Positions 20,889 to 51,575 of a stretch of 62,412 nucleotides of DNA are shown here, piece by piece; the stretch's first letter is position 1, and each line of letters opens with the position of its first letter. The notes below the pieces were generated by a model. That model had not been told where the DNA came from. It was given only the letters and a program-made list of their open reading frames with translations, and did not search any database. Source of the DNA: Gammaproteobacteria bacterium (GTDB taxonomy: Bacteria; Pseudomonadota; Gammaproteobacteria; Pseudomonadales; Azotimanducaceae). Where the stretch lies: assembly GCA_009837185.1 (NCBI GenBank), contig VXUA01000013.1:1-62412 (forward strand). The letters are read 5' to 3'. The translations under genes and the position numbers were made by a program.

Positions 20889-20902
20889 TCTCGTCTTAGA
20901 TC

Positions 20903-27325: not shown

Positions 27326-30300
27326 TCAATGTTGATGTGAGTTTGCGTTCACGTTAAACGATGTAGTCGCAAATCCGAAACGACCATCAGCAGAGGTAGC
27401 CAAAACCATCACGTTCCATTTGGTGATGCTATCAGGTAAGGCGAAATCTAATTGAGTATTTTCATCACTAGTAACGATGGAAGGATTCCAGTACGCAATA
27501 AACGAGTCCACAGAGTCGATTTCTGGGTCAGCAACCGTGGTTGAGGAGAAGGAGGGCGCAATGTGTGGAGGGTAGCGCGAGCCGTGAGAGCTTGTAACAT
27601 ATTCAAAATCGTCTTCAAAAAACCATGGTTCTGGAGGAACTGGAACTACAGACGATTCAAGCAATACGTCGATCAAACCAAAAGTTCGAACGAGTTTGTT
27701 AGTGCTAGGTTCAAATGACACTATCGAAGAGTCAAAAATGGACACTCCCCTGTGTGTTTCAATTGCTTTGAATTCATCGTCATAGAATTGGGCGCGGGCG
27801 CGTCGCCATTCTCTGTATTCCGTGCTTATGTAGTTTGTTAGTCGATCGTCGACCACTACGACCGCGTACTCGATCGGTGTCGTGCTGTTTGTTTCTCTGT
27901 CGAAAGAGTCAAAGACACTCTATTTTTGGTTTGATTTATTTGCAGATTCGATGAAACACTAATATTGAGCGGAACATCAGGAACTTCCAACGTGAACTGC
28001 TCTGTGCCGAAAAGCCATATAGAGCTTGATCTGGATTACCTTCAGGTGGTCTTGGAGACACCATGAGAACCGATAATACAAAGCGAGGAGCATATTCTTC
28101 ATGAACAATGAACTCTATTACAGGATTTGCCGGGTCAATGAAGTTCAACCAGTGATCAATAATTCCGGCACGTTCAATAGTAACCAGTGTCTGTCCGGGA
28201 TCTAAGTAGTTTTCAACGATACAACGAATTGTGCTACCAACCTCGACAGCTTGCTCGTTGCAGATCAATTTCAATTGGCTGCGCTTGACAAACTCGGGTC
28301 GTTCCGGAGGGCTTTGTAAATCGACAACGGCTTCCACTTTGATGGTGGATCGTTGTGGATTCCCTTGCGAATCTACTATATTTGCATCAATTCGGTAACT
28401 TGTTTCCTCGGTCGGAGTCAGGTCGCAAGATACAGGTTCGTTCTTGGACTCGAGCTCACATCTCTGGACCTCGACCCACAAACGATCCTCAGGATCAAAC
28501 TGGTGAATCGAAATTTGAACCTCTTTTCCAGAAACTACTTGACTGTCTTTCGATACTACGAATGTTTGAATTGGCCAAGTTTCCCCAACTCTAATCTGTC
28601 CGTCTCGTAAGTCCAGCTGCCAACTTCGTGGTTTTTGAATTCCGACAAACTGATCCACTCCGTAGTGCGAGGCGATCGCATATGTATTAACAGATTTACC
28701 GTGGTCACTGAAAACCGAACCTTCAATCACAAATTTTCCATAATAGATGTTGTTGTCTAGAGAATCGATGGTCAATGTACTCTCACCCTCTTTGTCGAGT
28801 TCAAATGCATGCTCAATACGAGAATCGCGGAAACCCCAGTAGCCTTCAGTTACAAAGTCTCGACCACTAAATTCATACAACCAATCTCCTGCGATATCAA
28901 GTACTAGAGGCGGTTCCCTAGGGTACAAATCAATCATTAAGTATCCCAGAGCGTTAGCATGCATTTCCCCAGAATGCAACTTTGAAGCTGTTGTGATCGT
29001 CATGTTGCCGCCGCGGTAGTATGTTTGCGCATCGAAATCTAGCGAAACGTGAATTGGATTTGTACGAAAATCATTTACTTCAAACCATCCGCCGGTCGCA
29101 ACATATACACCCGGAGTAGAAGTAGCTTTACTTCCGAAGGTGTGCGACCGAGTGTGCGAACAAGGATTAGTGACCGGTTTATTAAGGTCATAGATCAGAT
29201 TCACTCTGTAATCGTCAGATTTCGCGTGTTCGCTCAATTTGAACGAAGCGTGATATGCTCCGAATTGGTTCAAGTAGATCGGCGCGATCTCAATTTCTTT
29301 AAAAAGCGACTGTTTGATGCACAACGCGAAGTGATAATCGGAAGGAATGAACGGAACCTCTCCGCGTTGGCTTTGAACGTATCCTTTAATGTGTACAGTG
29401 TCACCCGGTCTATACAACTTTTGAGAAGTAGCGATCCAACTCTCCACGTTTTCATAAATGGAATCAATCCGTCCCCAGCCGCTCAAAAGATAGTCTCTCT
29501 ACAAAGGCAACACTGCTAGTCCAGATTTTCCTCGTACTCTCAGAAAATGTCCGCTACAGTCTCTGTCCTCTGTACCGTCTTGGATGGTGACATTTCGGAA
29601 TTGATCCCCATTTGGATCAAAGGCTTCGTACCCCGGTAAACTAACGAGGCCGTCGTTATCGGTTGTACCTGAGAAAATAGTTTCGCTCGTTTCAGAAAAG
29701 TCTTTTGGCGTTCCGATGTAAAGGTCTACATCGGTGTTAGCAACAGGTCTACCTGTTTCTATATTCACAACCCACGCTAACGAACTAACTTCGCCTAACT
29801 TAAAAAATACGGAATAGGGTGTTGCTTGCACAAAAAAGTGCTGTTGTAGTTGTTCGTCCGACCGTTCAATTCGTGATTGGCCAACGATTTTGCCGAACAT
29901 TAATCCTGAAGAAGTTCTGAGCGAAGTGTGGAGGTCTATAGTCTGTGGTTCCAAGACGTTGACTTGCTCTGGACCAGGTAATGGGCGCGTCTAATTTAAC
30001 AATGCTCCTTGTTCGTCAAGGATACTGTAATTGAGTGATAGTTCATCAACGTTCTGAACATAAATCATTGGCTCAAACTGTCCGTAAGAATTGACGGTGG
30101 TAATGGGTTGTGCTAGTAGAATCAATGCTGGCGAGTCTGTAGTTTTAAAAGTGATGTCCGTAGGACCAATTATCGGTTGCCCGAAACCGTCTTTCACCGG
30201 GGTTGTATTTTTGGGATCGTCGGTGGCGGCAATAAAGAGCTTATACGTTGTGCTTGGTTCAAACTTCGTACGAATGCGATACTTGACACCTCTCATGCCG

Positions 30301-31334
30301 GACCGATAGTACTCGTTGTCGACCAATAAGAACCTGTCTTCCTTCGCTGTCTGTGGAAGAGTATGAACAATTTCATCGAGCGTGTGATTCTCGAGGCTGG
30401 ACGAGAACACTAGCGAGATTTCTAAATCTACATTGCAAGTTTCATCGTGTGATTTACCAGCCTCCAAGAAATGAGACACTTCATTTGAATCGTAGCAAAG
30501 AAGACCTAAAAACCTGAAAGCATCGGAAAATTCAATGAAGGTGTCAATTAGTCTTCGTTCGGTAGTCTTTAATTCTCCTTGTGCTCCTTTCACCCCCGGC
30601 AAGAGAACTACCGAAACTTCTACATTAGGCGAAAGCGGTTCGCGTGGTAATACAAATACGCGATTTCCCGTACCGTCTTCATCGTCTCGTAGTCTGTCGC
30701 GACCAGCGAAATTTTGATGTCTTTGCTGTATTCCGAAATAGTCTGTTAAAAGAGCTTGGCGCAACGCCCACGTGTAAGGCAGTACGGTTGTCGGTATCTC
30801 TCGCTCAGTAACAACGTCGTACATAAAGACTCGATCCTTGAGCGAAGCGATCTCAATGTTTTGATCGAAGTAAACATCTATGATAGGTTTATCGCGAGAG
30901 ATCCATGAGTGTAGCCGAGCTCTCCTAATTGTCGGTACGACTGTATCGAAGACATGAACGTAATCGTCCTTTAAAGTATGCCCGTTTAGCGTAACTAGTC
31001 CAGAATTGATCTTTATCACATACCTAGTTGAAGGATCTAGTGTTGTCGCTTCTGGTAGCGAACAACGAAGCCTGTCAGCTCTGACCCATTCCCATTTACA
31101 CGGCAGAGTTGGTTTTATGTCGATAGGTACTTCGTCATCGGCGTAACGGGAGGTAAGAGAAGAGACGACGTCTTGATTGAAGTCGATCTCAATCAGTTTA
31201 TCGACCGGAACGTTGGTGCCCACGGGATAAAATTCCGAGACTCTTAACGGAGTACCCTTCGAGTCGTCGGTACCGTGAGTTCCGGCAAAATTACAGAGAA
31301 TCAAAAAAACAGCAGCGACTGTTCTTTTCTTCAT
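27326..31334 (-). pseudogene. Decayed alpha-2-macroglobulin gene
   Basis: Read on the minus strand, the region encodes, in order, segments collinear with residues 1 to about 1360 of the intact paralogue at 37758-43778, including a signal peptide. It is broken by a TAG at 29991-29993, a TAG at 29499-29501, frame changes between about 28030 and 27850 (one frame reads QFTLEVPDVPLNISV, then TPIEYAVVVVDD resumes in another), and a TGA at 27326. The thioester domain and everything C-terminal are absent. No single product longer than 516 residues is possible, so it is a pseudogene. It shows that this array once had at least three members and that one is being lost. Confidence 0.85.
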
Positions 31335-31516: not shown

Positions 31517-34500
31517 TTAGGGCTCAACCTTCAAAATCCATGGCTTAGACTTGCTAAACATCACCGGTCGATATACTTCTTCTACGTGAGCAGGTAATAC
31601 CCTGAACTCACCCGAGGTGATCGCTCGACCAATCCAAGCCGCATGGTACTTATTTCGAAGTAAGTACTCTTCGAAGAATTGCACTGTTTGCAGTCCTAGT
31701 TCTCCGTTCCAACCTCTTAAAGCATCCTTTTTGAACTCTTCATACCATTTACTAGTGGGTAGGACATCTTCGAACTCTGATGTGGAATTAAAGTACGATT
31801 CTGGATACCAACCAAATTCTTCGAAGCTCACTGGTTCTAAGCCACCCGGTACTGGATCTTCAAGTACAACGTGGAACCGATTAAATTTATTGTTCAAAAA
31901 TAAATTGACCAGTACTGTATCGCCTTTTTTGACATGGTCGCCAGGTTCAAGAATCTCCCAACCCTCTTCACGAAACACTACGTATTCTCGATGGATTTCT
32001 AAACCAGAATAACGATTAATTTCTTGGTTGAGGATTGCTTGGTACGACAACTCAACATCGTAGAATGCAGTCCCAGTGCCTTGGCGATTAATCTTGAGAA
32101 CACTCGTTGGCGTTAATCTTTGATCTTGCAAGAGGTGCGCGGTATGCAACTGAGTGAATTCCTGATTCATTTGCCATCCATCGACAAGCCGGATAGATTT
32201 TTGGTTTTCTTCCATGTACAAGTCAACCGTTGCCTGCAGATTACTCGCTTGAGAATCCACATGATCGAAATACGTAATCAAAGCGTTTGTGCAAAAGACG
32301 TTCTCCTGAGTGTTAGCCCAGTGGAAAGAACCTTGCCGAACGAATCTCACTGAGTTAGCTAGTTCTTTTAAGATTCCAATATCAATGCTATTGGATTTGG
32401 ACTTAGAGAACTTTGTAAGTGCCTCCAACACTGAACAAAGCGTTCGTGTTTTTGAATGATGTATTTGAGTGAATGTGCTAGGTAATGACTCGAGAATTGT
32501 TACTGTTCCGTCATCAGCGGAAAGATGATGCATGATGCGTTTCATTACCTTGTCGTTGAGTGGATGAGAGGAGTTTAGTTCGAGTGTCGCTAGTAGATAA
32601 TGAGACATGCCAAATACGTCCATGTGATCAATTCGATCTGAGTACTTGTCTAGGTCTGTTTCGGTTAGGTCTTCTGCAAGTGCTAAAGCATGAAACATCA
32701 CCGCGCTCGTGGTTGCCTGTAGTCTGTGCCTGAGATCTTCATCTTCATCTGCCAGATGACTCCACGTATCACCGTTTTCATTTTCTAAGAAATCATGGAT
32801 GTATGCCGTTAATTTCTGGCTAGTCGTTTCCGGAATGTCATAATTTGCATCACTGAGCCACCCCAACACAAGAGCGGTATAGGCCGATAAATAAGGACTG
32901 ACGGATGAATTTTCCGGACTCTGAGAATAAACCATACCCCCACTAGGTTTTTGAAATTTGGAAATCGATGCCAATGTTTGAGCTACCAGTTGGTCAGGTT
33001 CAACTGAGAGATTTTCGTGCTTCACCTCACGCTCTTCTAGTTGTATGTACTGCATCGCGAGAATTGCTTGAGACAATCTCTGCTCCCAAAGTAAATATGG
33101 TTCTTTAGTCACGGTTCGAAAAACTCCATTGAGATTCACTCTGTCATTTGAAGTCAAGGTCAAATCTATCTTGCGATCCTTGATCGAGCTGTCGCTTGGA
33201 AATAGAATGGGTACGTTGGTTTCAGTATCTTTGAGTGTGCCGTAGGCTACATTGGAGATACGTATTCGATTACTACGCACAGGAATGCGCATATCTAGTT
33301 CCTCGTTGTTTCTACGACCACGGACACTAGCAACAACTCGAATTTCCGAGGGATCGTTTAGTTGACTCATACCAAGAGGTACTGCTTCAGCTTTCACATC
33401 CATCGTCAAGATCTTGGTTTCAAAGGGAGCCACATCAACGTGTTGTCTGATCTGTGTTTCTGAATCGCTCACTAGCGACCCTGAGGCTTTTAGATCAACC
33501 GTGAATCGACGTCTGCGTTCTGTAGGATTCTCTATCAATGTTCCAACCTGAAATGTATCACCTTCAGTGACTACGTTAGGTTGGACCGTACGGACTATTA
33601 CTTTAGTTTGAACGTCGTGGTTAGTGATGTCTCTCTTTGAGGTAAATGAAGTAGTCGCATAGCCGAAGCGATGATCCCTAGATGCAGCAGTCACCATGAC
33701 TTTCCAACTAGTGCTATCTTTCGGCAAGTCGAAGCTCAATTTCGCTTGACCGCTGGGCGTGACAAGAGATGGATTCCAGTACGCAACCCAATTCTTTGTT
33801 TCTTGCAGTGTTGGGTCAGACATATCGGTGGGACTCCAGCGTATTCGAGGGTACCTGCTTAAGGGACGCCAAGTGTTTACAAAGTGCGATTGGTCTCTAG
33901 TTTCTGGTGTCGTATCAGGCGCGACCGATTGATCCCTAAAGGCAACTAGCAAACCAAGAGTGTGTACCCCGCTGTCAACCGAATGCCACAGTTTCTTAGT
34001 CGGGTCGAAATACCTGTTTGCTGTATCCTTTTCGGGCGGCAGCAACTCGTGCAGGACCGGAAAGTCTACAAAGTTGTGCTCATCTTCAAGCTCGCTTACG
34101 AAATCTAAGAGAGTCTCGTCAAGTACAGCTACGGTATACTCAATTGGTACCACACCACTCACGTTTTCTGCCGATATTGACAACATCACCTGATCTCCAA
34201 CATCGTAGGACTTCTTATTAGTCGAGATCGCAATTTCGAGCGGTTTGTAATAAGGATGTTCCACAATAAATTCCGCATTGCCAATACGAGCTATAGCAGT
34301 ATCGAGATCGTTTGGGGAATCTAAAGGTTTCTGGTTTAGTACAGACAGTGTAAAGTTCGGTACATATTCCTCGCGGATGTCAAATTCAATGATAGGGTTT
34401 GTGGGATCTAGTCGAACCAACCATTGGTCGATCACGCCATTGTGTTCAATGGTCACCAACGTCGGTGCGTTACTCATACTATTTTCAACAGTACATCGAA

Positions 34501-37500
34501 CAGTGTCACCAACTTTAACTTCCTGTGCTTCACACAGCAACTTTAGATCGTCTAATTTTGGGCGTTCGCTGAGCAAAGAAGTCCATGCTGTCAGACCGAC
34601 GGCTTCCACTAATACGCTCGATTGATGAGAATGTCCTTTGGAATCAACTATTTGGGCATCGATTCTGTAGTGGCCTATTTCAGTTGGAATGAAGTCACAT
34701 GAAATCGGTGTCAAGGCGGACACTACTTCACACTTAAATACTTGACGCCATTCGTAAGTAGAGTAACTCAATTCTTGCCCGCGGGAATAGACCGTTATTT
34801 GAACCTTTTTTCCGGCAACTAGTTCATCATCTTTGGACACAACCAAAACTTCTACGGGCCACGCACTATCGACTTTAATTTCAGTATTTTTCCATTCTTG
34901 ATAGCTTATTTCAGGAGAGGCCACCGGATGGCGAATTCCGACAAATTGATCGACACCGTAGTAGTCTGCCATAGTTCGTTTAGTAACAACGTCGCCGTTA
35001 CTACTACTCACCCAGCCTTCTATCCGAAACGTAGCAAAATAAAAGGGCGCTCCTAAAGAAGAAAACGTCAATGTGTGCTTACCTTCGTCATCCAACACGA
35101 TATCGAAGTCGGTTCGTTTTTGAAACCAATCACTGTCCAACGGAACTAACGGAATACCACTAAATTCATACTCGGTGATATCGACGGTTTTAATAGGTGG
35201 GGGTCCAGGAATTAGAACCACGTCCATGCTACCGACACCATGAGAGTTCGGTCTTCCGTCATAAAACTCTGATGACGTGTGGATTGACATACGATCACCA
35301 CGACGAAAAATTTTTGAATTCAAGTCCAGGGAGACTTGTAGGGGACTTGTTTCGAATTCGTACACTTCAAACGAACTTCCGTCTGCAACATGAACTCCGG
35401 GTGTATCGTAGTTTTTCTCGTCGTAAAGGTAAGAACAGGAATCGTTTATTGGTCGTTTATGTGAAAAAACCAACCGTATGTCGAATTCACCAAATTCGGT
35501 AGATTCGTGTAAATCATACGATAGATGAAACGCTCCAAACTGATTCAAAGTAATATCCCGATGATCATGCAGATCTCCACCCCGGATACAGAGTGCAAAA
35601 TCCATTCCATCTGGAATTTCGAGCTTGTTTGCTGATATATCCCGGATATAGCCCTTAATGTGGACGGTATCACCCGGTTCATACAAGGGTTGAAGTGTTG
35701 TGATCCATGCCTCAATATTGATGTCTCTCGGATCAGAAAAGTACTGCTCCTGATACTCGAAATCATCAATGACAGGCATCATTGCAATACCCTTTTTTCC
35801 TTCGACACGAATAGAGTATCGTTTCGAGAACAACCACTCAGGGTTAGTTGATTGACGGGTCTGAAATGTGATCAAACCGTTTGTGTCGGTCACTCCTGAA
35901 GCAAAGGATTCCAGAGTATCAAAATAGTCATCTATATCACCTTGAAATAGTTTCACTTCAGCATTCGAAACAGGTTCCCCTGTACGGAGGTCAACCACCC
36001 ACACTAGGGCTTTAAAGTCTCTTACTTTGACAAAAATGGAATAAGGAGTGGCTAGCACTTGAAAGTAATCCGTTACCGATTCTTCTGGTCGATCAAATCG
36101 TGGTCGACCAGAGATTGAACCGAACATCGCACCAGAAGATAAACGTAAAGCAGAACGGAAGCCTAAATTTTGAGATTCAAATATGTCGTCGTATTTAGGA
36201 CTCGGCTTAGTCAGTGTTAGATTTCTTTGTTCGCCTTCTAAGTCGAATAAGTCATAGGTGACGATAATGTCTTCCACGTTCCGTGTGTAGAGTAGAGGAT
36301 CAAACGAACTGTTTGAGTCGATGACCATCCATGAATCTTCCAACAAGACTCTTGGCGATGAATGAGCAGTTCGGAAACTAATTTTGTTAGTACTAATCAA
36401 CGGCCGATCAAATCCATCTCGGACCCGTGGATCAGGGTGAGTTTTGTTGATCGTGCGTCTCGTCTCACCAACATAGAGTTGATATTCCGTACTTGGTTTG
36501 AAATCGTTGCGAAACGAGTATTTGAAGCCGGACAGTTCCCCGTCGGAGTACCAGTCTACTCGTCGAAACGACCCAGGCCATTCATCACTTTTTACTTCTT
36601 GTGTGTGGGGGTCTGTTTGAACAAGCTCTTGGATTTCTCTCTTTAAAGGAGAAGATAAGAGGACTGCAAAATCAGCACTAGCGTCGCAAGCGACGTTCCC
36701 CGATTGGGATGGAGTCACGACAACACTCTTTCCATGAACGTCTTGGCAAATAAGACCAAGTAATTGAAATTTTCCAATCGTTGAGACTTCTGCGTCGACA
36801 GTGTGTCTTTTACGGGACCTTACATTGCCATGCGCACCTTCAATACCCGGTAGTAAGAGTACTGACAAAGTAATCCCAACAGGCAAAGGTTTGTCCGGAA
36901 ACAATAGCACGTGGTCAGTATTAACACTAGTATTTGATTGTTCATTCAAATGATTGAATTTTTGAAAAGTCTGCTTTTGGCCATATTTGTCATCAGATAG
37001 CGCATACCGCACTTTTCTGGAGTAAGGCCATACTCTAACTGAATACTCTTGTAAAGTACGTGAATCAATTAAATGAATTCGGTCTTGCACCGATTGCAGT
37101 TTAACTTCTTGATCAAACGAAACATCGATGATCGGTCGAGTGGGGGAGATCCAAGAAATCAGGTTCGTATTCCTAATGTTGGGAAGAGCGGTTTCAAAAG
37201 TGTGCAGGTACTCTTCCTCCAACTCATGCCCCAACAACGATGTAATTTCCGAACGCACTGTTACAGTAAACATCGTCGCATCAAAAAGGTCCTCATCCTC
37301 CTGTAGATCGCACCTCAGCACATTAGATTCGATCCAAATCCAATCACAATCGAGGGCGGGATCAACTTCAATTGGAACGACTTTGTCCGCATACACGGAA
37401 GGGCTCATGTCAACCATGACTTGAGTGAACTCAATAGTGATTCGCGCTTCAGAGTCCACGTCTTCGCCTGAAGGATAAATTGCGTTAATCTTCAGAGGAT

Positions 37501-37582
37501 TCTCTGATGAGTCTCCTTCGCCTTGAATGCTCAAGCAGATGCAGAGTGACATAAATACTACAAGTTTTAAGCGTATGTTCAA
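31517..37582 (-). CDS. Alpha-2-macroglobulin family protein without thioester Cys
   Basis: A 2021-residue exported bacterial alpha-2-macroglobulin. A signal peptide of about 22 residues lacks a lipobox, so it is probably periplasmic and not lipid-anchored like E. coli YfhM. It has an N-terminal Ig-like domain, the macroglobulin domains (PGDTVHIKGYIRD at about 645), the MG8 segment (WVAYWNPSLVTPSGQ at about 1270) and a helical domain. At the thioester site the motif is LWEQ (Leu 1498 encoded by CTT at 33089-33091) instead of CxEQ, so no covalent trap can form. Thioester-less members exist, e.g. YfaS. The usual pbpC partner gene is absent. It probably binds or shields proteases or other proteins non-covalently. 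Confidence 0.88.
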   Translation of the reverse strand: MNIRLKLVVFMSLCICLSIQGEGDSSENPLKINAIYPSGEDVDSEARITIEFTQVMVDMSPSVYADKVVPIEVDPALDCDWIWIESNVLRCDLQEDEDLFDATMFTVTVRSEITSLLGHELEEEYLHTFETALPNIRNTNLISWISPTRPIIDVSFDQEVKLQSVQDRIHLIDSRTLQEYSVRVWPYSRKVRYALSDDKYGQKQTFQKFNHLNEQSNTSVNTDHVLLFPDKPLPVGITLSVLLLPGIEGAHGNVRSRKRHTVDAEVSTIGKFQLLGLICQDVHGKSVVVTPSQSGNVACDASADFAVLLSSPLKREIQELVQTDPHTQEVKSDEWPGSFRRVDWYSDGELSGFKYSFRNDFKPSTEYQLYVGETRRTINKTHPDPRVRDGFDRPLISTNKISFRTAHSSPRVLLEDSWMVIDSNSSFDPLLYTRNVEDIIVTYDLFDLEGEQRNLTLTKPSPKYDDIFESQNLGFRSALRLSSGAMFGSISGRPRFDRPEESVTDYFQVLATPYSIFVKVRDFKALVWVVDLRTGEPVSNAEVKLFQGDIDDYFDTLESFASGVTDTNGLITFQTRQSTNPEWLFSKRYSIRVEGKKGIAMMPVIDDFEYQEQYFSDPRDINIEAWITTLQPLYEPGDTVHIKGYIRDISANKLEIPDGMDFALCIRGGDLHDHRDITLNQFGAFHLSYDLHESTEFGEFDIRLVFSHKRPINDSCSYLYDEKNYDTPGVHVADGSSFEVYEFETSPLQVSLDLNSKIFRRGDRMSIHTSSEFYDGRPNSHGVGSMDVVLIPGPPPIKTVDITEYEFSGIPLVPLDSDWFQKRTDFDIVLDDEGKHTLTFSSLGAPFYFATFRIEGWVSSSNGDVVTKRTMADYYGVDQFVGIRHPVASPEISYQEWKNTEIKVDSAWPVEVLVVSKDDELVAGKKVQITVYSRGQELSYSTYEWRQVFKCEVVSALTPISCDFIPTEIGHYRIDAQIVDSKGHSHQSSVLVEAVGLTAWTSLLSERPKLDDLKLLCEAQEVKVGDTVRCTVENSMSNAPTLVTIEHNGVIDQWLVRLDPTNPIIEFDIREEYVPNFTLSVLNQKPLDSPNDLDTAIARIGNAEFIVEHPYYKPLEIAISTNKKSYDVGDQVMLSISAENVSGVVPIEYTVAVLDETLLDFVSELEDEHNFVDFPVLHELLPPEKDTANRYFDPTKKLWHSVDSGVHTLGLLVAFRDQSVAPDTTPETRDQSHFVNTWRPLSRYPRIRWSPTDMSDPTLQETKNWVAYWNPSLVTPSGQAKLSFDLPKDSTSWKVMVTAASRDHRFGYATTSFTSKRDITNHDVQTKVIVRTVQPNVVTEGDTFQVGTLIENPTERRRRFTVDLKASGSLVSDSETQIRQHVDVAPFETKILTMDVKAEAVPLGMSQLNDPSEIRVVASVRGRRNNEELDMRIPVRSNRIRISNVAYGTLKDTETNVPILFPSDSSIKDRKIDLTLTSNDRVNLNGVFRTVTKEPYLLWEQRLSQAILAMQYIQLEEREVKHENLSVEPDQLVAQTLASISKFQKPSGGMVYSQSPENSSVSPYLSAYTALVLGWLSDANYDIPETTSQKLTAYIHDFLENENGDTWSHLADEDEDLRHRLQATTSAVMFHALALAEDLTETDLDKYSDRIDHMDVFGMSHYLLATLELNSSHPLNDKVMKRIMHHLSADDGTVTILESLPSTFTQIHHSKTRTLCSVLEALTKFSKSKSNSIDIGILKELANSVRFVRQGSFHWANTQENVFCTNALITYFDHVDSQASNLQATVDLYMEENQKSIRLVDGWQMNQEFTQLHTAHLLQDQRLTPTSVLKINRQGTGTAFYDVELSYQAILNQEINRYSGLEIHREYVVFREEGWEILEPGDHVKKGDTVLVNLFLNNKFNRFHVVLEDPVPGGLEPVSFEEFGWYPESYFNSTSEFEDVLPTSKWYEEFKKDALRGWNGELGLQTVQFFEEYLLRNKYHAAWIGRAITSGEFRVLPAHVEEVYRPVMFSKSKPWILKVEP

Positions 37583-37757
37583 GTTCCTATTCCAACGAAT
37601 CGTAGTGTAACGTAATCGATCCAGTATTTCTTAAATATAAACATCTACGCGACTCTTAGATGTGCAAACATCTGTTCATAAACCAAAAATTTCAGCACAG
37701 CTTTGGTGGTTGTCAGCATATGACGAGTCCATGACGATTAAATACAGGGCGATATGA

Positions 37758-40700
37758 CTACGGTTTTACTTTGAGAGTCCAAGTTTCGGATTTACCAAAC
37801 ATGATCGGACGGTACATTTCCTCAACATGAGTTGGCAAAACTGTAAATTCACCCGCAGCAATCGCTTGTCCTAGCCACGTCAAATGGTATTTGCCCCGAG
37901 TCAATGCCTCATCGTAGAACCGGACGTTTTGAAGACCTAATTCACTGTGAAATCTGTGACGACGGGGAGGCCATATGCCTTCGTCGACCCGGAAGTTTCT
38001 GTACCACTTACTTTGGGACAGGATTGCTTCCAACTCCTCTTGACTATAGCTTGGACGGTATTCCGTGCCTAAACTTGGATTCACTGGTTCTAGCCCGCCT
38101 GGAACGGTATCATCGACGACGACGTGGTAGCGCAAAAACCTATTATTGAGAAAGAGATTGACAAAGACAAAGTCTCCTTTGTTTATGTAGTCTCCAGGAT
38201 TTAAAACGTGCCCCCGGCCGTTACTATCTATAGTGAAGTATTCTCGATGGACTTCAAACCCTGAGAACCGATTTATTTTTTCATCAACTGTCGTTAAATA
38301 CGCTAACTCAACACTGTAAAAGGCATGTCCACTCCCAGTGCGATTGATTTCCAATGCCCCTGTCAAACCAAAACTTTGAGCATTCATGGGATGTAACTTT
38401 TGAAATTTAGTATTGTTTGAATTGAACTGCCAAGCATTTGCCAGTTTGATTGAACTGCCGGTGTCGGTACTCTGCAGGTCTACAGTTGCGATCCAATCTT
38501 GAGCGTCGGACTCCACAAAGTCATCGAAATCCATAAGAGCGCGAGTACAAAATACATTTTCTTGCGTATTCACCCAATGAGGTGAATTGGCGCGAGCGTA
38601 GCGTACGGAATTTGAGAGTTCTTTCAATTCTCCAACGTCGACCCCGTTTGAAGTTGAATCTGAGAATTTGGTAAGAGCATCCAACACGACACAAAGCAAT
38701 CTAGTGCCCGAATGGAGCATCTGTGTGTAGGATAGGGTGATCGCTTCAACGAACTCGACCGCCCCGTCGACCAAAGATCGATAATTCATGATGCGGTCAT
38801 AAATCATTTGACTCATGGAAGGATACCTGTTTAACGATATAGACGCTTGTAAATAATGAGCTAAACCAAATAGTTTCATTTGGTTTGCATAGTGAGAAAA
38901 ATGTACGAGATCTGACTCCTTCAATTCTTCAGCAAGTGCTAACGAGTTCAATATGACTGCATTAATGGTCGCGTCTCTGTTGGAAAGCTCTGTTTCTTCT
39001 TTTTGTTTATCCAAATATTCGCGCAAGTAATCGATGAGTTTTCTTTGTACTTTTTGAGGTACCTCGTAGCCAGCATTCTCTAACCATGAGAAAGCGATAG
39101 CGGTATAAGCGGATAAGTAGGCGTCACCACCAAAGCCAAAGACAGCATAGGGATTGTCATCCTGAGCGCCAAAGTAAACCATGCCGCCGTTTTGAATCTG
39201 AAAATTTACTGCTGAGTCAAGGACGCGAACGATCGTGGCTTTTGGATCTGGCCATTCAATTCCGTGTTTGACACCTCGTGCTTCGAGTTCTACGTATTGC
39301 ATCGCAAGGAGGGCTTGTGTTAGTTGTTGCTCCCAGCATGTGTACGGATATTCGATCGCATGACGAAAAACCCCATCAAAATTCACCTCTTCGTTAGTGG
39401 TCAGTGTGAGATCGAGTTGTCCATCTTCTGTAGCAAGCTTCGCCGGGACCTCTATAGGAATGCTCGTCGTATCTTCTACGAGTGCACCGTATGCAACGCT
39501 CGACACTCTAACGCGTTTCGGACGGACCGGAATTCGAATGTCTAGAGCGTCTGCATCCCGACTATCACCAGCACTTGCAATAACTCTAATCTCTGAATTA
39601 CGAGAAATTTCTTGCAAATTGGTCGGACGAACTCCAGCTTGTACTTCCCACGTGACAACCTTTCTCTCAAAGGGTTTAAACTCGAGTTCCTGTCGAACTC
39701 CTGTTGCGGATTCTTCGTCAAGTAAACCCGATGCTAGCAGTTCAATCGTGATCGCACGAATACTGTCTGCGCGATTGAGGATTGATGCTCCGACGTGAAA
39801 CTTATCTCCTTCAGTGACTACGTTGGGTGCAACCGCTCGAATCTCCGTATCCTTGATCGAACCGAATGACGTAGTGGCATAGCCAAATCTATCGGTGGCT
39901 GAAACGGCCAAAACCACTACTTTCCAACTAGTCAGGTTGTCCGGTAGATCGAACGTTATGATCTCTTGGCCAGTTTGCGAGATCACTGAAGGGTTCCAAT
40001 ACGCGACGAATCTATCAAGTGTTCGAATGTTGGCAAGCGGTCTCGCAGAGCTTCCCATCCCGGCCCCGAGAGCGGACGACGCACTTGCCACCACTGTTTC
40101 ACCGTAGTAAGGATGGACGGATCGGTGATCCCAATAGGGTTCCGGAGTTAAGGATAGCAGATCAAAATCCTCCATTAAAGAGTCGATCAAGCCATATGTT
40201 CGCAGACCCCTTGCTCTTAAAGCCCAACGCTTGCTGGTTGGATCAAAGTATCCATCCTCCGCACTACTTAAATCTAAGAGTGATTCATCGATCACTGCTA
40301 TTGCGTACTCTATTGGAACGTCCCCACTTTCTTGGTTATCAATTGACAGAGACAATTCGACTCGTTCTCCTGGACCGTAGAACTCCTGATTCGCTGAAAC
40401 CTCGATAGGGATCGACTCAACAAGGGGATTGTTCAAGGTGAACTTCTGACTCCCCAAACGATATCTAGCGTCCCCCGACTGATTCGCGATTTTGGTAGGA
40501 GACACGCTTAAAACTGATAGATTAAAGTGTGGTGCATACTCTTTGCGAACGGTGAACTCGACAATGGGGTTTGTAGGGTCAAATCGAACCAACCAGCTAT
40601 CTATGACTCCTGAGCGCTCAATCGTTACAAGTGCGGGCGAACTGCCGAGGTGATTTTCGACCGTACACTGAACGTCATCCCCAACGGCAACTTCAATGAA

Positions 40701-43700
40701 ATCGCAAGAAATCTCTAACTGGATCTCCTCCGTGGGTTGCGCTATTGAAAACGGCGAACGTTTTTCGTCGTGCGCTTCAAATCGAACAGAGGTGCGATGA
40801 GTATTTCCATTAGTATCGACGATTTGTGCTATGACGCGATAGAAATTTTTCTTTTCGGGAATGAAGTCACAAGAAACAGGATCTTGACCTGAAACTAAAG
40901 TACAGTCAAATATCTCCCTCCACAGAATACCGGGGTCATAAAGAGAGGTATGCTCATCGACGTCCAATATACTTTCAGAGACCGTGATCTGGACTTCTTT
41001 GCCGATCACCACCGCGTCTTCTTTTGATAAGACCACGACTCGAATCGGCCAAGGTTCATTGACGCTAGCCCAATGGGAATAGTCAAAACCATGATCAAAT
41101 GCCTGACGGTTCCTTTGAATCCCCACGAATTGATTCACACCAAAATACGGTACCGAGACTCGCTCTGCAACGGACTTACCTCTGTCGCTGATAACTGAAC
41201 TTGTGATCCAATACTCTCCGTAGTAGAGGTCATTGTTTAACGATTCGATTGTATGCGTGTGATTTCCGTGATTATCTAATTCGATCTCGACCCCAAACTC
41301 TCTACCAAAGGGACGAATCTTCTCAATTTTGAAATCAAAGTGATACATCCCTGCTTCTACTGATTCAAAAGGCAGCCAGCTCGACCGCAACCGAATGTCT
41401 AATTGCCCCTTTGCGTGAGCGTAAGGTCCGCCTGCATGCAGTTCGGCGCTGCTAGTGATCGACATGTCGTCACCGCGCTCGAATTGTGTGGCGTTCAACT
41501 GCTGAGTGACGTAAATAGGATTAGTTTTAAATTCGAATACGTCAAATAAGCCGCTCGTAGCGGTATACACTCTAGGAGCATCAGACGTAATCGTACAGGG
41601 TTCAGCGATCGCTCGCGTTGGATGGTACAACAGTTCAATGTCATACTTCCCAAATTCCGTGCGATCGTTCAATTTAAAGGACACGTCATACGCACCGAAT
41701 TGATTAAGAGAAATCGGTGCGATCTCGTATTCTCTCGCAACTGGCCCTTTTACGCACAATGCGTAATGACCTGAGGTAGGAATGATTCGTACTTCGTTTC
41801 GAACACTTCGCACATAGCCTTTGATATGGACCGTATCTCCTGGAGTGTACAAACTCTGCGATGTCGTGGTCCAGTGATCCAAGTTTCGATAAATGGACGA
41901 AGTCGAATCTTCTCCGTTTAAGATGAAGTCAGAGTCTAGTGGTAATAGCGACATTCCTTCGTCTGTTTCCACGCGCACAAAGTACATCAAACACTCTTCC
42001 TCGTCGGGACAAGCACGGTTAATCTCGTGGACGGCACGATTCCAGTGTGGATCAAACGACTCGTAGCCGGGTAACGACACCAAGCCATCCTGATCGGTGA
42101 CTCCCGTGTGAATTGATTCACTGACCGTGCTGAGATCACTTGGATCGCCAATAAAGAACTCAACATTGGCTTCAGCTATAGGTTCCCCTGAATGGAAATT
42201 GACGACCCACGCAATCGTAGTGACAGTGCCTAGCTTGAGATATACGGAGTAAGGTGTCGCCTGCACAAAAAAGATTTCTTGCTCTTCGCCTTTCGGATGG
42301 TCAAACCTCGGTTGCCCATCGATCTTGCCAATTAGTACACCCGATGGAGAACGCAGCAAATCCCTAAGATTGAAAAACTGAGCTTGCCAGACATCGTCTT
42401 GTTTTGGACTTTGTAGTTGTTGAGATTGATTCTGTAGTGTTCCTATTTCGTCAAGCACGTCATACGCAACAGTTACTTTGTCAATATTCCCGATCACAAT
42501 TTGTGGGTCGAGTTTGCCTCTGGAATCGACAACGACATTCGTTCCATTTAAATATGCTTTGGGCGCGGGTGGACCAGTTCGAAACGTCACTTCGTTGTTC
42601 CCTATTAAGGTCCGTCCAAATCCGTCTCGGACTGGGGTTAGAGTAACTGTCCCATCATTGCTTTCTTTTTTTTGAGAAACGTAGAGTCGATACGTCGTAC
42701 TGGATTTGAAATCGCCGACAAGGCTATACACAAATCCTCCATATTCGGCTTTACGAACGCCTCCCCAAACGTTGCTCCAATCGGGTACGTTCGTGGGCGG
42801 TTCAGTATGTACAAAGTTGTCGATGTCTGGATCAGCGAATCGTGAAGAAAAAACAAGATGTATGTCGGAAAGAACGCTACACGCATTTTCGTTAGGTTCA
42901 TCTACCTTGAGGAAAATGTCGGTACCCGAAATATCTTGACACCCAATACCGAGCATGCGGAACTCGTCGAAGGTAGTGATAGCGGTGTCGAAGTGATGGT
43001 CCTCGTTTGACTCTAGGTTACCGTTCGCGCCCGATAGACCAGCTAAAAGAGTGAGTGTTACGTTGATTCCGGGCGAGAGAGTACTCTGGGGACTGACCAA
43101 TGCCGAGTTTCTTAAGAATCTATCAAACCGACTGTTGCCACCCCCAAAACTTCGGCTCTGGAATCTTTTCGATCTACCAAAATAATCTCTTCGGAGAGCA
43201 TCATAAAGACCCCAGGAGTATGCTCGAACGTTTGAGGGTACTTCTTCGCCGGAAACAGAGTCGTTGAAACGAAGTCGATCCCTTAATGAACTGAGATCCA
43301 CTCGTTGGTTAAAGAAAACTTCAATGATCGGTTGCGTAGGGGACGCCCACGAAACTAATTCTGTTCTGATGATTGATGGTAGAACTGTTTGGAAGGAGTG
43401 AACGTACTCTGCTTCTAGTGTTCGACCATTAGGTGCTTTAATACCCGGACGCACCCTCACTGTGTATTCAGTTGAACCGTTAAGGTCGGTATCTCCCGGT
43501 AACTCGCATTTCAAAGTGTCCAGACTAACCCAGTTCCATTCACAATCAAGCGCAGGTTCTATGTCAATGGGAACTTCGTCTTCAATAAACATCGAGATAC
43601 CTAAACCCACAACGTTTTGATTGAACTCGATGGTAATGCGGTTGTAGGGACTTACTTCTTCCCCTTCGGGGTAAATAGCGCGAACTTTTAGTGGTTTTTC

Positions 43701-43778
43701 AGAGGAGTTACCGACGGTCTGTGCGCCTACGCCACAAAGGACACCGACCAGCATGATCGCGACTATTCGATCGAACAT
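37758..43778 (-). CDS. Alpha-2-macroglobulin family protein with intact thioester motif
   Basis: A 2006-residue paralogue of the 31517-37582 protein. It has an uncleaved-looking signal of about 20 residues with no canonical lipobox, an Ig-like N-terminal domain, macroglobulin domains (TPGDTVHIKGYVRS at about 645) and the MG8 segment. The thioester-domain motif is YTCWEQQLTQALLAMQY with Cys 1481 and Gln 1484 (codons 39327-39338), the CxEQ needed for the reactive thioester. Bacterial relatives guard the periplasm by trapping proteases. Usually a peptidoglycan synthase gene (pbpC) is next to such genes; here the neighbours are two paralogues instead. Transcribed leftward, probably from about 43800-43900. 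Confidence 0.9.
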   Translation of the reverse strand: MFDRIVAIMLVGVLCGVGAQTVGNSSEKPLKVRAIYPEGEEVSPYNRITIEFNQNVVGLGISMFIEDEVPIDIEPALDCEWNWVSLDTLKCELPGDTDLNGSTEYTVRVRPGIKAPNGRTLEAEYVHSFQTVLPSIIRTELVSWASPTQPIIEVFFNQRVDLSSLRDRLRFNDSVSGEEVPSNVRAYSWGLYDALRRDYFGRSKRFQSRSFGGGNSRFDRFLRNSALVSPQSTLSPGINVTLTLLAGLSGANGNLESNEDHHFDTAITTFDEFRMLGIGCQDISGTDIFLKVDEPNENACSVLSDIHLVFSSRFADPDIDNFVHTEPPTNVPDWSNVWGGVRKAEYGGFVYSLVGDFKSSTTYRLYVSQKKESNDGTVTLTPVRDGFGRTLIGNNEVTFRTGPPAPKAYLNGTNVVVDSRGKLDPQIVIGNIDKVTVAYDVLDEIGTLQNQSQQLQSPKQDDVWQAQFFNLRDLLRSPSGVLIGKIDGQPRFDHPKGEEQEIFFVQATPYSVYLKLGTVTTIAWVVNFHSGEPIAEANVEFFIGDPSDLSTVSESIHTGVTDQDGLVSLPGYESFDPHWNRAVHEINRACPDEEECLMYFVRVETDEGMSLLPLDSDFILNGEDSTSSIYRNLDHWTTTSQSLYTPGDTVHIKGYVRSVRNEVRIIPTSGHYALCVKGPVAREYEIAPISLNQFGAYDVSFKLNDRTEFGKYDIELLYHPTRAIAEPCTITSDAPRVYTATSGLFDVFEFKTNPIYVTQQLNATQFERGDDMSITSSAELHAGGPYAHAKGQLDIRLRSSWLPFESVEAGMYHFDFKIEKIRPFGREFGVEIELDNHGNHTHTIESLNNDLYYGEYWITSSVISDRGKSVAERVSVPYFGVNQFVGIQRNRQAFDHGFDYSHWASVNEPWPIRVVVLSKEDAVVIGKEVQITVSESILDVDEHTSLYDPGILWREIFDCTLVSGQDPVSCDFIPEKKNFYRVIAQIVDTNGNTHRTSVRFEAHDEKRSPFSIAQPTEEIQLEISCDFIEVAVGDDVQCTVENHLGSSPALVTIERSGVIDSWLVRFDPTNPIVEFTVRKEYAPHFNLSVLSVSPTKIANQSGDARYRLGSQKFTLNNPLVESIPIEVSANQEFYGPGERVELSLSIDNQESGDVPIEYAIAVIDESLLDLSSAEDGYFDPTSKRWALRARGLRTYGLIDSLMEDFDLLSLTPEPYWDHRSVHPYYGETVVASASSALGAGMGSSARPLANIRTLDRFVAYWNPSVISQTGQEIITFDLPDNLTSWKVVVLAVSATDRFGYATTSFGSIKDTEIRAVAPNVVTEGDKFHVGASILNRADSIRAITIELLASGLLDEESATGVRQELEFKPFERKVVTWEVQAGVRPTNLQEISRNSEIRVIASAGDSRDADALDIRIPVRPKRVRVSSVAYGALVEDTTSIPIEVPAKLATEDGQLDLTLTTNEEVNFDGVFRHAIEYPYTCWEQQLTQALLAMQYVELEARGVKHGIEWPDPKATIVRVLDSAVNFQIQNGGMVYFGAQDDNPYAVFGFGGDAYLSAYTAIAFSWLENAGYEVPQKVQRKLIDYLREYLDKQKEETELSNRDATINAVILNSLALAEELKESDLVHFSHYANQMKLFGLAHYLQASISLNRYPSMSQMIYDRIMNYRSLVDGAVEFVEAITLSYTQMLHSGTRLLCVVLDALTKFSDSTSNGVDVGELKELSNSVRYARANSPHWVNTQENVFCTRALMDFDDFVESDAQDWIATVDLQSTDTGSSIKLANAWQFNSNNTKFQKLHPMNAQSFGLTGALEINRTGSGHAFYSVELAYLTTVDEKINRFSGFEVHREYFTIDSNGRGHVLNPGDYINKGDFVFVNLFLNNRFLRYHVVVDDTVPGGLEPVNPSLGTEYRPSYSQEELEAILSQSKWYRNFRVDEGIWPPRRHRFHSELGLQNVRFYDEALTRGKYHLTWLGQAIAAGEFTVLPTHVEEMYRPIMFGKSETWTLKVKP

Positions 43779-44095
43779 TTAGTACTTCCCTAGCCGGCAA
43801 TTAGGAACATTTACAAGAATTTCCAGAACTATATCTTGGCTTCACGCACATCCATGCATCCAATCCTCAATTCTATCCGATTTAGAGAGTCTCAATCTTA
43901 GTAGTATTCACAGTGATAGAAGCGAAAAGGATTTTTTCGATTTCTTACAAGTCACTACATCAACAAAAAAAGTGTACCTGATTTGTAGACATGTAAACTA
44001 AAAACTGTACAATATAACATATCTAAAGCACAGACAAGGTGCAAACCCAATGCAATTCAATACGTCTTAATTCACTACCTTCGAGGGGGTCTTTT
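43779..44095. other. Divergent promoter region, alpha-2-macroglobulin/DUF2857
   Basis: AT-rich spacer between divergent genes. Towards the DUF2857 gene it contains TTGTAG (43984-43989), TACAAT (about 44009-44014) and a copy of the ICE-upstream motif. No gene is supported. A GTG at 44039 would extend the DUF2857 protein by 19 residues, but the ATG at 44096 is preferred. Confidence 0.45.
43989..43999 (+). promoter_or_regulatory. Copy of ICE-upstream motif (ACATGTAAACT)
   Basis: It matches 9 of 11 positions of ACATATAAACA and lies between possible -35 and -10 boxes of the DUF2857 gene, a good place for repression or activation. Confidence 0.3.
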
Positions 44096-44713
44096 ATGGT
44101 GAAAACTAAAGAAGCCGAACTTACTTCGGCTGTCTTCCTATATGTGCTCCGCTGTATTGCCGAAAGTGATCACATCGCGCTCCAGCAACTAAAAATTGGC
44201 GAACGAGAAATCGAACAACTTCGTACGCTTGGCATCCTTGATCTTTATCGAATCGATTCGTTCCGTTCTCACTGTTTGTCCATTAGCTTCAATCGAGAAG
44301 TATTTTGGACGCTGATAAACTACATGAAAGAACAGCGTGACAACGAAACTCAGCTAGAACAACTCATTAATAACGATGCCCCGTACAGTATGCTCGAAAT
44401 GTTTTTTGGTATCAGCAACAGAGAGTACACACAACGACGACGAGCGAAGAAAGGCTTAACCAATGTGGGTCGACCAAACGAACCATCTGATTCGGAAACA
44501 GATTCATTACTAGAAATATGGTTCAAGCGATTCTCGACTAACGACAAAGATGCCGAAGGCAGGCTTCTAGATCCTATTCAATATCTTGATCTCGCGAGCG
44601 AATTAGATATTCCCCTCCGGTCTGTTTGGTTGTTAACTGAAAGATGGGTTGAGCTCGACCGGCAAGCTTTCATCAAAAAGAAAAGCAAGAAAAGAAAAAC
44701 GCTTACGGTTTGA
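44096..44713 (+). CDS. DUF2857 protein, putative ICE activator
   Basis: A protein of 205 residues from ATG 44096, chosen because AGGGGG lies about 10 bases upstream. The N-terminal helical part (AVFLYVLRCIAESDH, then LGILDLYRI) and the MLEMFFGISNREYTQRRRA segment, followed by VGRPNEPSDSETDSLLEIW, match the DUF2857/STY4526 family. This family resembles FlhC-like regulators and includes activators of ICE transfer genes in ICEclc-type elements, from memory of that work. Its basic tail (KKKSKKRK) may contact DNA. It usually sits near parB, yet here it is 41 kb away inside cargo. It is preceded by a copy of the ICE-upstream motif. Confidence 0.75.
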   Translation: MVKTKEAELTSAVFLYVLRCIAESDHIALQQLKIGEREIEQLRTLGILDLYRIDSFRSHCLSISFNREVFWTLINYMKEQRDNETQLEQLINNDAPYSMLEMFFGISNREYTQRRRAKKGLTNVGRPNEPSDSETDSLLEIWFKRFSTNDKDAEGRLLDPIQYLDLASELDIPLRSVWLLTERWVELDRQAFIKKKSKKRKTLTV

Positions 44714-45722: not shown

Positions 45723-45851
45723 AGCATACTTTCTGCGATGGATGAGTTGAAATTTGGGTCTTCGACTCATCAAACTTATGACAATGTAGCGGCACAGTGA
45801 AGTTGGAATCGTTGCAGTACAATTCTCTGTCGCCGCCGATGAAGACTCTCT

Positions 45852-47010: not shown

Positions 47011-47025
47011 TTGGAGAACTTAAAT

Positions 47026-48845: not shown

Positions 48846-49169
48846 ATGAATTTGGAATTGCTGATGAGAACTTCAAAACTAATTCTTCTAACCCTGATCG
48901 TCTTAACGATCGACGGGTTTGCGTTTCACTTTGCGGACACGGATGCTGAGCATGCCGCACTCGCACAAATTATTACTGAACTGAAAGGTTTAGACAAGCT
49001 GATTGAGCGCGCGGAAAACGAAGCTAATCCGACCGCACGCATCAGTTTCCAATACGATTGGTTGCGACGGGATTTAAAGCTCGTGCGACGAGGTATTCAA
49101 GATCACCTAGACACCCCTTCCAGCGAACCTCGAGAATTTGAAGCTCTTCAAGGAGATTACCGTCAATGA
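48846..49169 (+). CDS. RAQPRD-family ICE protein
   Basis: A 107-residue exported protein with a signal sequence. The segments ITELKGLDKLIERAENEANP (about 41-60), ISFQYDWLRRDLKLVRRGIQDHL and the terminal REFEALQGDYRQ are typical of TIGR01690 (RAQPRD). The RAQPRD-like signature itself is replaced by SSEPREF-type residues, as in several relatives. Starts at 48846 or 48864 are both possible. It opens the second transfer block and its stop overlaps the next ATG (ATGA). Role: periplasmic T4SS component, exact function unknown. Confidence 0.85.
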   Translation: MNLELLMRTSKLILLTLIVLTIDGFAFHFADTDAEHAALAQIITELKGLDKLIERAENEANPTARISFQYDWLRRDLKLVRRGIQDHLDTPSSEPREFEALQGDYRQ

Positions 49170-49396
49170 ACGGCGTTCAAAAACAAGCTTTCTTGGCTGG
49201 TTCCGGGGTAGAGTCTGCGGCGATGCTACTTGCAATCAAGAGTTCTTTGATCGTGCTGATCTTAATTTGGACTACTTGGGTTGCCATCGGTGCTTTTCGA
49301 GCTTGGCGATTTGGCGACTTGGAAGTCTATGACTTTCTTTGGCAAGTGATGCGCGCGTCCATCATTCTTCTCGTGATCGGTTTTTACATTCAATGA
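49166..49396 (+). CDS. ICE membrane protein, TIGR03758 family
   Basis: A 76-residue protein with two transmembrane helices (about 24-42 and 57-74) around a short polar loop (FRAWRFGDLEVYDFLWQV). This two-helix layout and the AWRFGDL-type loop match TIGR03758. Its ATG overlaps the RAQPRD stop. Small inner-membrane T4SS subunit in PFGI-1-like systems, TraA/VirB-pilin-like in position; the function is inferred from context. Confidence 0.82.
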   Translation: MNGVQKQAFLAGSGVESAAMLLAIKSSLIVLILIWTTWVAIGAFRAWRFGDLEVYDFLWQVMRASIILLVIGFYIQ

Positions 49397-49429
49397 TCAA
49401 CATCTTTTTGCAAATCAACGAGGTGAAAT

Positions 49430-49765
49430 GTGCAATTAATCTCTAACTATTGGGCTTATCTAGTCTCCTATTCTTTTCCAACGCCTCGAGCAGATCTTCC
49501 AACGGCCGTCGCGCCTAGTACAGCTCCGGATGAAGGCGACTGGATCGCGCTTATCTCAGGCTATATCAAAGATGGCGCGCTGGTTCTTGGACTGGCTGTC
49601 GCGGCCGTAGGTTTTCTTTGGGTTGCGTATGTTGGATTCGCTAAATTCAATGAAGCAAGACAAGGCAAAGCGGAATGGGCAGAAGTAGGCGTTCTAGGTG
49701 TCGTGGGGGCTGTCGTATTGATCTTCGCGAGCTACCTGTTAACTGAAGCTTCAAAGATCTTTTAG
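49430..49765 (+). CDS. ICE membrane protein, TIGR03745 family
   Basis: A 111-residue protein starting at GTG after AGGTG. After an exported N-terminus, the sequence has a conserved VLGLAVAAVGFLWVAYVGFAKFNEARQG region (about 54-80, shown here in part) and a second hydrophobic segment (VGVLGVVGAVVLIFASYLL). Two helices with a charged loop between them match TIGR03745, found immediately after TIGR03758. Probably a pilin-like or channel subunit, by position. Separated from neighbours by 33 and 4 bases. Confidence 0.85.
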   Translation: MQLISNYWAYLVSYSFPTPRADLPTAVAPSTAPDEGDWIALISGYIKDGALVLGLAVAAVGFLWVAYVGFAKFNEARQGKAEWAEVGVLGVVGAVVLIFASYLLTEASKIF

Positions 49766-49769
49766 ACCG

Positions 49770-50132
49770 ATGAACGAGTCGCACGAAGAACGGGTTGCTG
49801 ATCGCATGAACTGTGAGCCACCAATCTTTAAGGGGTGCTCAACTTCAGAGTTGTTGTTTATCGCTGTTGGTGCAACGGCGTTCTGGTTTCCTGCGAGCAT
49901 ACTCATCTGCGCACTACTCGGCGCGATCACCATGGGTCTAGGTATAGCAGGAGTGGGCGTAGTTGCGACCATTGTAATTGTGGCTTCGTTTTTTCAGAAG
50001 ATCAAGAATGGACGCCCAGACGGTTACTACCAACAAATCTGTCGTGTTTGGCTCGCCAACAAAGGAGTACAAGCCTGTCCGCTAATCTTAAAGTCAACGC
50101 ACTGGGATCTGGGACGAACAAATAGTGCGTAA
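49770..50132 (+). CDS. ICE membrane protein, TIGR03750 family (DUF3487)
   Basis: A 120-residue protein. CEPPIFKGCSTSELLFIAVG (about 14-33) leads into two transmembrane helices (about 27-52 and 55-74), followed by NGRPDGYYQQICRVWLANKG and HWDLGRTNSA at the C-terminus. These three blocks are diagnostic of TIGR03750/DUF3487. In ICEs it is a small inner-membrane T4SS component (TraL/VirB3-like by position). Its stop overlaps the GTG of the next gene by eight bases. Confidence 0.9.
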   Translation: MNESHEERVADRMNCEPPIFKGCSTSELLFIAVGATAFWFPASILICALLGAITMGLGIAGVGVVATIVIVASFFQKIKNGRPDGYYQQICRVWLANKGVQACPLILKSTHWDLGRTNSA

Positions 50133-51574: not shown

Positions 51575-51575
51575 T

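Follow-up and report, generated by a model that had tools for sequence, protein, structure and literature searches.

Bacterial alpha-2-macroglobulins (A2Ms) are sorted into type I, which carries the thioester motif CXEQ, and type II, which lacks it, and the type II protein MagD of Pseudomonas aeruginosa is described in passages of PMC5764988 as trapping protease non-covalently. Excerpts of a second source (PMC12663445) report that MagD helps P. aeruginosa against certain peptidoglycan effectors of the type VI secretion system (T6SS), by a mechanism called unclear there. In the A2Ms of Escherichia coli (YfhM, also ECAM) and Salmonella, the thioester is shielded by two tyrosines ahead of CLEQ and by the methionine and tyrosine of an EXMY motif (part of the text of PMC4498604), and a covalent bond is stated to be necessary for inhibition by the monomeric A2Ms of bacteria and animals (portions of PMC9156758). 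Here we analyze bases 1-62412 of contig C14 (VXUA01000013.1) from a gammaproteobacterial assembly of 2.77 Mb in 86 contigs (GCA_009837185.1, denoted G000), a stretch termed the window below, in which an array of A2M genes lies at a conjugation-type locus: one intact copy retains the thioester motif as CWEQ, its intact neighbor reads LWEQ, and a third copy is broken. We lean, at slightly better than even confidence, toward the view that this array is a family of protease traps evolving by birth and death, its members secreted and probably periplasmic and its conjugation-type locus resident, and that the LWEQ protein is a functional non-covalent derivative. The elements on which the argument turns are as follows.

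37758..43778, minus strand: A2M copy 1 (CWEQ), 2006 residues, ATG start, identified by open reading frame (ORF) and Pfam; first in the array and presumed covalent trap
31517..37582, minus strand: A2M copy 2 (LWEQ), thioester-less, 2021 residues, TTG start, identified by ORF and Pfam
27326..31334, minus strand: A2M copy 3, broken, in pieces 27326-27856, 27936-29486, 29499-29954 and 29991-31334
39327..39338, minus strand: thioester motif CWEQ of copy 1, Cys1481 to Gln1484, aligned by the family profile with CLEQ of YfhM
33080..33091, minus strand: LWEQ of copy 2, the motif without its cysteine (Leu1498, codon CTT), preceded by EPYL in place of YPYT
37812..37823, minus strand: EEMY of copy 1 (Met1988, Tyr1989), pocket motif of the C-terminal macroglobulin domain, with the pocket role taken from part of PMC4498604
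31571..31582, minus strand: EEVY replacing EEMY in copy 2 (Met to Val)
40005..40268, minus strand: approximate bait region of copy 1, residues 1171-1258, between the A2M_BRD and A2M domains
33785..34072, minus strand: approximate bait region of copy 2, residues 1171-1266, between the same domains
32027..33244, minus strand: stretch of copy 2 (about residues 1447-1852, the thioester domain and its flanks) absent in frame from a relative in genome G008

Both intact copies belong to the A2M family, and with ORFs of 2000 codons bearing family matches, chance is not at issue. The LWEQ and CWEQ copies score 39.8 and 52.6 bits, respectively, with PF00207 (A2M; Pfam cut-off 21), 38.0 and 40.3 with the bait-region domain A2M_BRD (cut-off 22.7), 37.4 and 39.5 with MG2 (cut-off 32.8), and 61 and 74 with bMG10 (cut-off 26.2). 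The genes adjoin on one strand with 175 bases between them, and a first-pass annotation of this DNA, which had described two intact, adjacent A2M genes of common layout, one with CWEQ and the other with LWEQ, was correct on these points; its remark that neither has a clear lipobox is borne out by inspection of both N termini by eye. The TTG start of the LWEQ gene recurs at the matching place in its G008 relative, and in four paralogues the same NTRLI is preceded by ATG instead.

Set beside the type I proteins of E. coli and Salmonella, the CWEQ copy matches the profile from the MG2 region to the thioester domain and shares CXEQ, the YPY before it and the EXMY of the C-terminal domain, the features by which type I is recognized; the LWEQ copy, with EPYLLWEQ and EEVY, falls outside that definition. 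The CWEQ copy differs from YfhM in being 353 residues longer and only 23.5% identical over 344 aligned columns, and the array copies differ from type I genes in lacking a lipobox and pbpC and in standing in tandem at a conjugation-type locus. With the type II proteins MagD and E. coli YfaS, the LWEQ copy shares the lack of CXEQ and the retention of bait region and scaffold, and BLAST against the open piece of K-12 YfaS scores higher than against YfhM both for it (48.5 vs 32.0 bits) and for a G008 copy lacking the thioester domain (61.6 vs 35.8). Its identity to YfaS is nevertheless only 21-23%, as against 41% to the CWEQ copy, and it clusters with the array genes (in a tree without YfaS). DUF1175, the YfaT-type operon partner and the sole mag partner family searched, was found in 0 of 18 genomes of the genus, with a positive E. 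coli control. Given the identity and tree tie to CWEQ genes and the absence of DUF1175, a separate, later loss of the thioester seems the better reading, and membership of type II was set aside, though the BLAST scores lean toward YfaS. Complement C5, of the animal A2M/complement family, likewise lacks the thioester alongside thioester-bearing relatives; it has the same fold and appeared among our profile and fold matches. For tandem bacterial A2M arrays of mixed thioester state, we found no paper among the matches listed by a search that covered few subscription papers.

The thioester state varies across the genus. Relatives of the CWEQ protein occur in 12 of 58 genomes; 11 of these are among the 18 of the genus, and one is from elsewhere in the order. 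Three relatives (VXLL01000004, VXNY01000029 and WTGV01000029) may be of sponge origin. The fetched stretches held 50 open frames of at least 60 residues matching the family, of which 34 were compared; the 16 excluded were short pieces, fragments of broken copies, partial frames at contig ends or the distant G038 sequence. The motif is covered by 29 of the compared frames: 23 have both cysteine and glutamine (22 CWEQ, one CTEQ), and six lack one of the two (one LWEQ, three SWEQ, two CWEH). An excluded G010 frame, 25253-27952, reads CWEQ too. The five remaining rows are G008_C1_149680, in which the region is missing in frame, G008_C1_145577, which ends ahead of it, and three partial frames; the G005 piece 3265-3852 and copy 3 likewise end near query residue 1322. 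Thioester-less copies share an array with CWEQ copies in G000, G002, G008 and G014, and in G003 share only the genome. When the motif columns are left out of the tree, parsimony finds that the thioester state changed four times among the 29 copies, and we read these changes as losses. A clade of four thioester-less rows has support (Shimodaira-Hasegawa-like approximate likelihood-ratio test) of 98 and 97 with all columns and only 78/90 with those ahead of the thioester domain; one loss or two may lie at its base, and if the clade is not real the number of changes may exceed four.

Loss of the cysteine in the window copy is accompanied by change in two residues of the thioester pocket, tyrosine to glutamate and methionine to valine. 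Across the genus, the methionine of EXMY is present in 22 of 22 thioester copies covering the site, as against two of five thioester-less copies, being replaced by valine in LWEQ, leucine in G002_17910 and isoleucine in G008_3697; valine stands at this site in the domain-less G008 copy too. The first pocket tyrosine is found in 23 of 23 thioester copies and four of six others. Fisher values are 0.003 for the methionine, 0.04 for the first tyrosine and 0.38 for the second, and since the rows are related these are not clean probabilities. The SWEQ copy of G003 and the CWEH copies of G014 retain the pocket, as would agree with losses of more recent date. A full-length G008 array copy at L040:3697-9801 carries SWEQ (Cys to Ser) with the pocket methionine changed to isoleucine, and lies outside the LWEQ lineage.

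The closest relative of the LWEQ copy is itself thioester-less. In a tree of columns ahead of the thioester domain, the LWEQ copy and G008_C1_149680 cluster at 100/100; their 1599 aligned residues are 56% identical. Missing the stretch listed above, the G008 protein picks up again at the C-terminal domain and keeps the rest. The next gene in both arrays is also of one lineage, with broken copy 3 pairing with G008_C1_145577, its nearest relative, at 66-84% identity by piece. Copy 3 has two TAG codons inside its main stretch, and its A2M match stops ahead of the thioester domain; the ORF at 26622-27137 was ruled out as part of it, having no Pfam match and corresponding to a separate gene in G005 and G008. 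Identity between LWEQ and CWEQ copies is 44% in the thioester domain and 41% in the remainder. Synonymous divergence (dS) is 1.56 between LWEQ and its G008 relative and 1.17 between CWEQ and its G008 counterpart, with rpoB at 0.61; thus either the array genes have the higher rate of divergence or some of the pairs are paralogues that split earlier.

Outside the thioester domain, the LWEQ copy is under purifying selection. We used codon models implemented in purpose-written programs, not checked against a published program, to estimate the ratio of nonsynonymous to synonymous rates (omega). Pairwise omega is 0.216 between LWEQ and its G008 relative (likelihood-ratio statistic, LR, against 1 = 419), 0.177-0.220 between CWEQ and five counterpart frames in four genomes, 0.26 between the G002 SWEQ copy and the truncated G008 copy, and 0.287 for the CWEH pair. 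A branch model of 1684 sites outside the thioester domain assigns omega of 0.274 to the LWEQ branch (LR against 1 = 22.6), 0.186 to the G008 relative (LR 60.9) and 0.216 to the rest; omega of 1 is rejected for both branches, and a single omega for all branches is not rejected (LR 2.03). The relaxed evolution of the LWEQ copy that the first-pass annotation had named as counting against its proposal was therefore not found. With all sites included, the truncated G008 copy has omega 0.343 (LR 8.2). Copy 3 was intended as a control and offers only a weak contrast: its omega is 0.25 against G002_17910 and 0.30-0.54 by piece against the nearest relative, and values well below 1 are expected if the gene broke recently.

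Taken as a series, these copies raise the possibility, which we hold tentatively and at somewhat under even odds, that A2Ms of this genus shed the thioester stepwise while the scaffold stays selected, passing from loss of cysteine and pocket with the domain kept (the window copy), through in-frame removal of the domain (G008), to truncation before it (the last G008 copy, and broken remains in G000 and G005).

The bait region gives a further line of evidence. Among four full-length CWEQ orthologues, conservation by 50-residue block averages 0.70 and is lowest, at 0.40, in residues 1201-1250, which is what a bait region should show; LWEQ and its G008 relative retain the bait stretch. Single-sequence searches of the PDB gave nothing at an expectation value (E) of 0.01, so that a profile was needed; the family profile matched YfhM at E 6e-27. 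The model of the C-terminal half of LWEQ has a mean predicted local distance difference test (pLDDT) of 56, too weak to discuss the pocket, although over residues 401-680 of the modelled fragment, which contain the thioester-domain helices, 18 of 28 ten-residue blocks reach 78-93 and 10 stand at 42-67. A2Ms were its top PDB matches (E. coli 4rtd at E 5e-25), with template-modelling scores of 0.2-0.35 by query length, low because the model is weak overall; the match points to a predicted A2M fold for this half.

In the mechanism we envisage, the bait region of the CWEQ copy would be cut by a protease, exposing the thioester, which would bond to the protease in the classical manner. The LWEQ copy, a putative derivative that has lost the thioester and part of the pocket, would still be triggered by bait cleavage and, by analogy with MagD, might hold the protease, or another envelope attacker, non-covalently. 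Export, trapping, targets and division of labor are all inferred here. Divided roles, which the first-pass annotation had proposed, are plausible: the LWEQ copy has kept its full length, with purifying selection acting on it, and thioester-less copies stand beside thioester copies in relatives. Its more specific scheme, a covalent trap plus a non-covalent partner or decoy, fared worse. Adjacency on one strand and co-occurrence with CWEQ copies in four arrays and one further genome would suit an obligate complex, yet G011 and G007 each keep three full-length copies, all CWEQ, so a partner is dispensable, and four state changes suggest independent specialization; we consider such a complex quite improbable. 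More weight, though still on the unlikely side, goes to thioester-less copies having left protease trapping, with the scaffold serving in the envelope, for instance in defense against rivals' peptidoglycan-targeting effectors, in adhesion, or in association with the conjugation machine. The protection by MagD against some T6SS effectors noted above would fit, as would purifying selection on a G008 relative lacking the thioester domain, the placement of A2M genes at the conjugation locus in six genus genomes (G013 seen only in part), and the bait block not being the most variable in the LWEQ pair. Against it, the bait stretch persists in both proteins of that pair, and the arrays of G007 and G014 lie off the conjugation contigs, so the link is not general.

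Two other explanations were weighed. The leucine might be an assembly or read error, the genome being an 86-contig assembly, and copy 2 an ordinary thioester A2M; however, CTT is two bases away from TGC or TGT, a pocket residue some 500 codons away is altered too, and the nearest relative lacks the whole thioester domain. Two base changes coupled to pocket changes make a misread very unlikely, and we give it only the slimmest chance. Alternatively, LWEQ may be on its way out, an intact-looking duplicate under relaxed constraint in an array that sheds copies. Copy 3 is broken, broken or cut copies are common among relatives, and the LWEQ terminal branch has omega nominally above the rest (0.27 vs 0.22); since copy 3 also has omega below 1, a function lost only recently could go unseen. 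Set against this, the branch model rejects omega of 1 for LWEQ and needs no more than a single value for all branches, the pooled pieces of copy 3 give 0.41 against their nearest relative (G008_C1_145577; dS 0.37, LR 98.5), and 2021 codons remain open at pairwise dS of 1.56. The codon models do not support neutral decay, and we rate a copy on its way out as quite improbable. The preferred reading, a functional non-covalent derivative, has its own difficulties, several of them already met: the nominally higher omega of the LWEQ branch, the value for copy 3, which means that omega below 1 alone is no proof of present function, and the missing DUF1175 partner. The all-sites branch run is weaker (LWEQ omega 0.289, LR only 12.2), the thioester-domain codon test rests on saturated branches, and the second pocket tyrosine (22 of 23 vs five of six) fails to distinguish the two classes. 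In the LWEQ pair the bait block stands at 0.42 against a mean of 0.56, and four more N-terminal blocks are lower, at 0.26-0.40. LWEQ and its G008 relative may be old paralogues, given their dS against that of rpoB, and since monomeric inhibitors are said to need the covalent bond, a lone thioester-less monomer may not inhibit.

The array is flanked by genes of a conjugation-type system.

44039..44713, plus strand: DUF2857 gene, adjoining copy 1, as it adjoins the copy 1 counterparts in G002, G005, G008 and G011
18861..21616, plus strand: TraD and TIGR03747 (the latter below cut-off), on one side of the array
48846..55967, plus strand: RAQPRD, TIGR03745, TIGR03750, TIGR03746, TIGR03749, TIGR03752, TIGR03751 and TraC_PFL_4706, on the other side

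The window resembles integrative and conjugative elements (ICEs) of the PFGI-1/SXT class in having ParB-like, PilL2, TraD, TraC and further TIGR037xx genes, including class-specific conjugation genes. As far as the fetched contigs reach, the order TraD, TIGR03747, repeat protein, A2M genes, DUF2857, outer-membrane-type proteins and RAQPRD to TraC recurs in G002, G005, G008 (on two contigs) and G011 and partly in G013; the copy 1 counterpart in G005 is spread over two frames. In G006 TraD and TraC are about 5 kb apart, so in the subclade of the window the conjugation gene set encloses the array along with other genes.

Carriage on a mobile ICE, as the first-pass annotation had it, is not supported, and the locus is probably resident and vertically inherited. 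TraC occurs in 17 of 18 genus genomes, with one main copy each (extra weak or partial matches in G002, G009 and G013, and one internal TAA in the G010 gene), and TraD also in 17 of 18, 15 over cut-off and those of G003 and G013 cut by contig ends; the genome without TraC or TraD is 78% complete. Divergence is like that of rpoB: dS for seven window conjugation genes is 0.40-0.83 against G008 and 0.38-0.86 against G011 (rpoB 0.61 and 0.60), for three genes against G005 0.41-0.63 (rpoB 0.43), and for four against G002 0.86-1.74 (rpoB 1.45). The MobH relaxase models PF07514 and TIGR03760 each matched 0 of 18 genomes, the control set including no genome known to carry such an ICE; a MobP relaxase model matched only G009 among the 18. 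Recent mobile cargo was set aside on these three grounds, which also distinguish the locus from PFGI-1/SXT ICEs. A search of plasmids returned eight records, all weak matches (20-24% identity, at most 52% of the query), a phage search returned no matches, and 18 pattern matches in viral contigs included no relative. PFGI-1-type TraC and TraD without a detected MobH relaxase are possibly a domesticated secretion or DNA-handling system.

Other genes of the locus also recur. Beside the array, at 44970-47715, three outer-membrane beta-barrel-type genes stand in a row, two matching Pfam OMP_b-brl and the third giving a weak AcfA-family match below cut-off; all three are present in G005, G008 and G011. 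Three large proteins of 589-643 residues with no Pfam family (9504-13129 and 21743-23674) are mutually related across genomes; one of them neighbors the A2M array and occupies that place in G002, G005, G008, G011 and G013 as well, and the other two were seen in G008 and G011. Several DNA methyltransferases and possible restriction enzymes lie inside the locus at 13361-16698, 24070-26389 and 56175-60036, including an HNH-type endonuclease with a methylase, Eco57I-like methylases and an MT-A70 methylase in two overlapping frames.

Besides the array, the genome has a classic-looking A2M/PBP1c pair. A fourth intact A2M, missed by the first-pass annotation, lies on contig C36 (L033 6241-12246; CWEQ, 2001 residues from a TTG start), 3 bases from a transglycosylase-transpeptidase gene fitting PBP1c best (438 bits with TIGR02073, below the cut-off of 494; region L033:4048-12246), and the same neighborhood occurs in G008 and G012. 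The earlier remark that no pbpC neighbor is present is accordingly right for the array, where no pbpC-type gene was found among the window ORFs scanned and a genus-wide PBP1c search had no match on contig C14, and does not extend to the C36 copy.

Within one genus, then, related copies that keep the thioester, lack it or lack its entire domain form a natural series bearing on the purpose of the thioester, and the apparent preservation of the thioester-less copy suggests that the trap can keep working without its reactive center. With four state changes among 29 genus copies, the labels "type I" and "type II" may not correspond to two separate clades of bacterial A2Ms. If the tentative proposal of stepwise shedding is true, nature would supply A2Ms that work through the bait-plus-ring scaffold alone, within a diversifying multigene array comparable to the thioester-protein families of animals.

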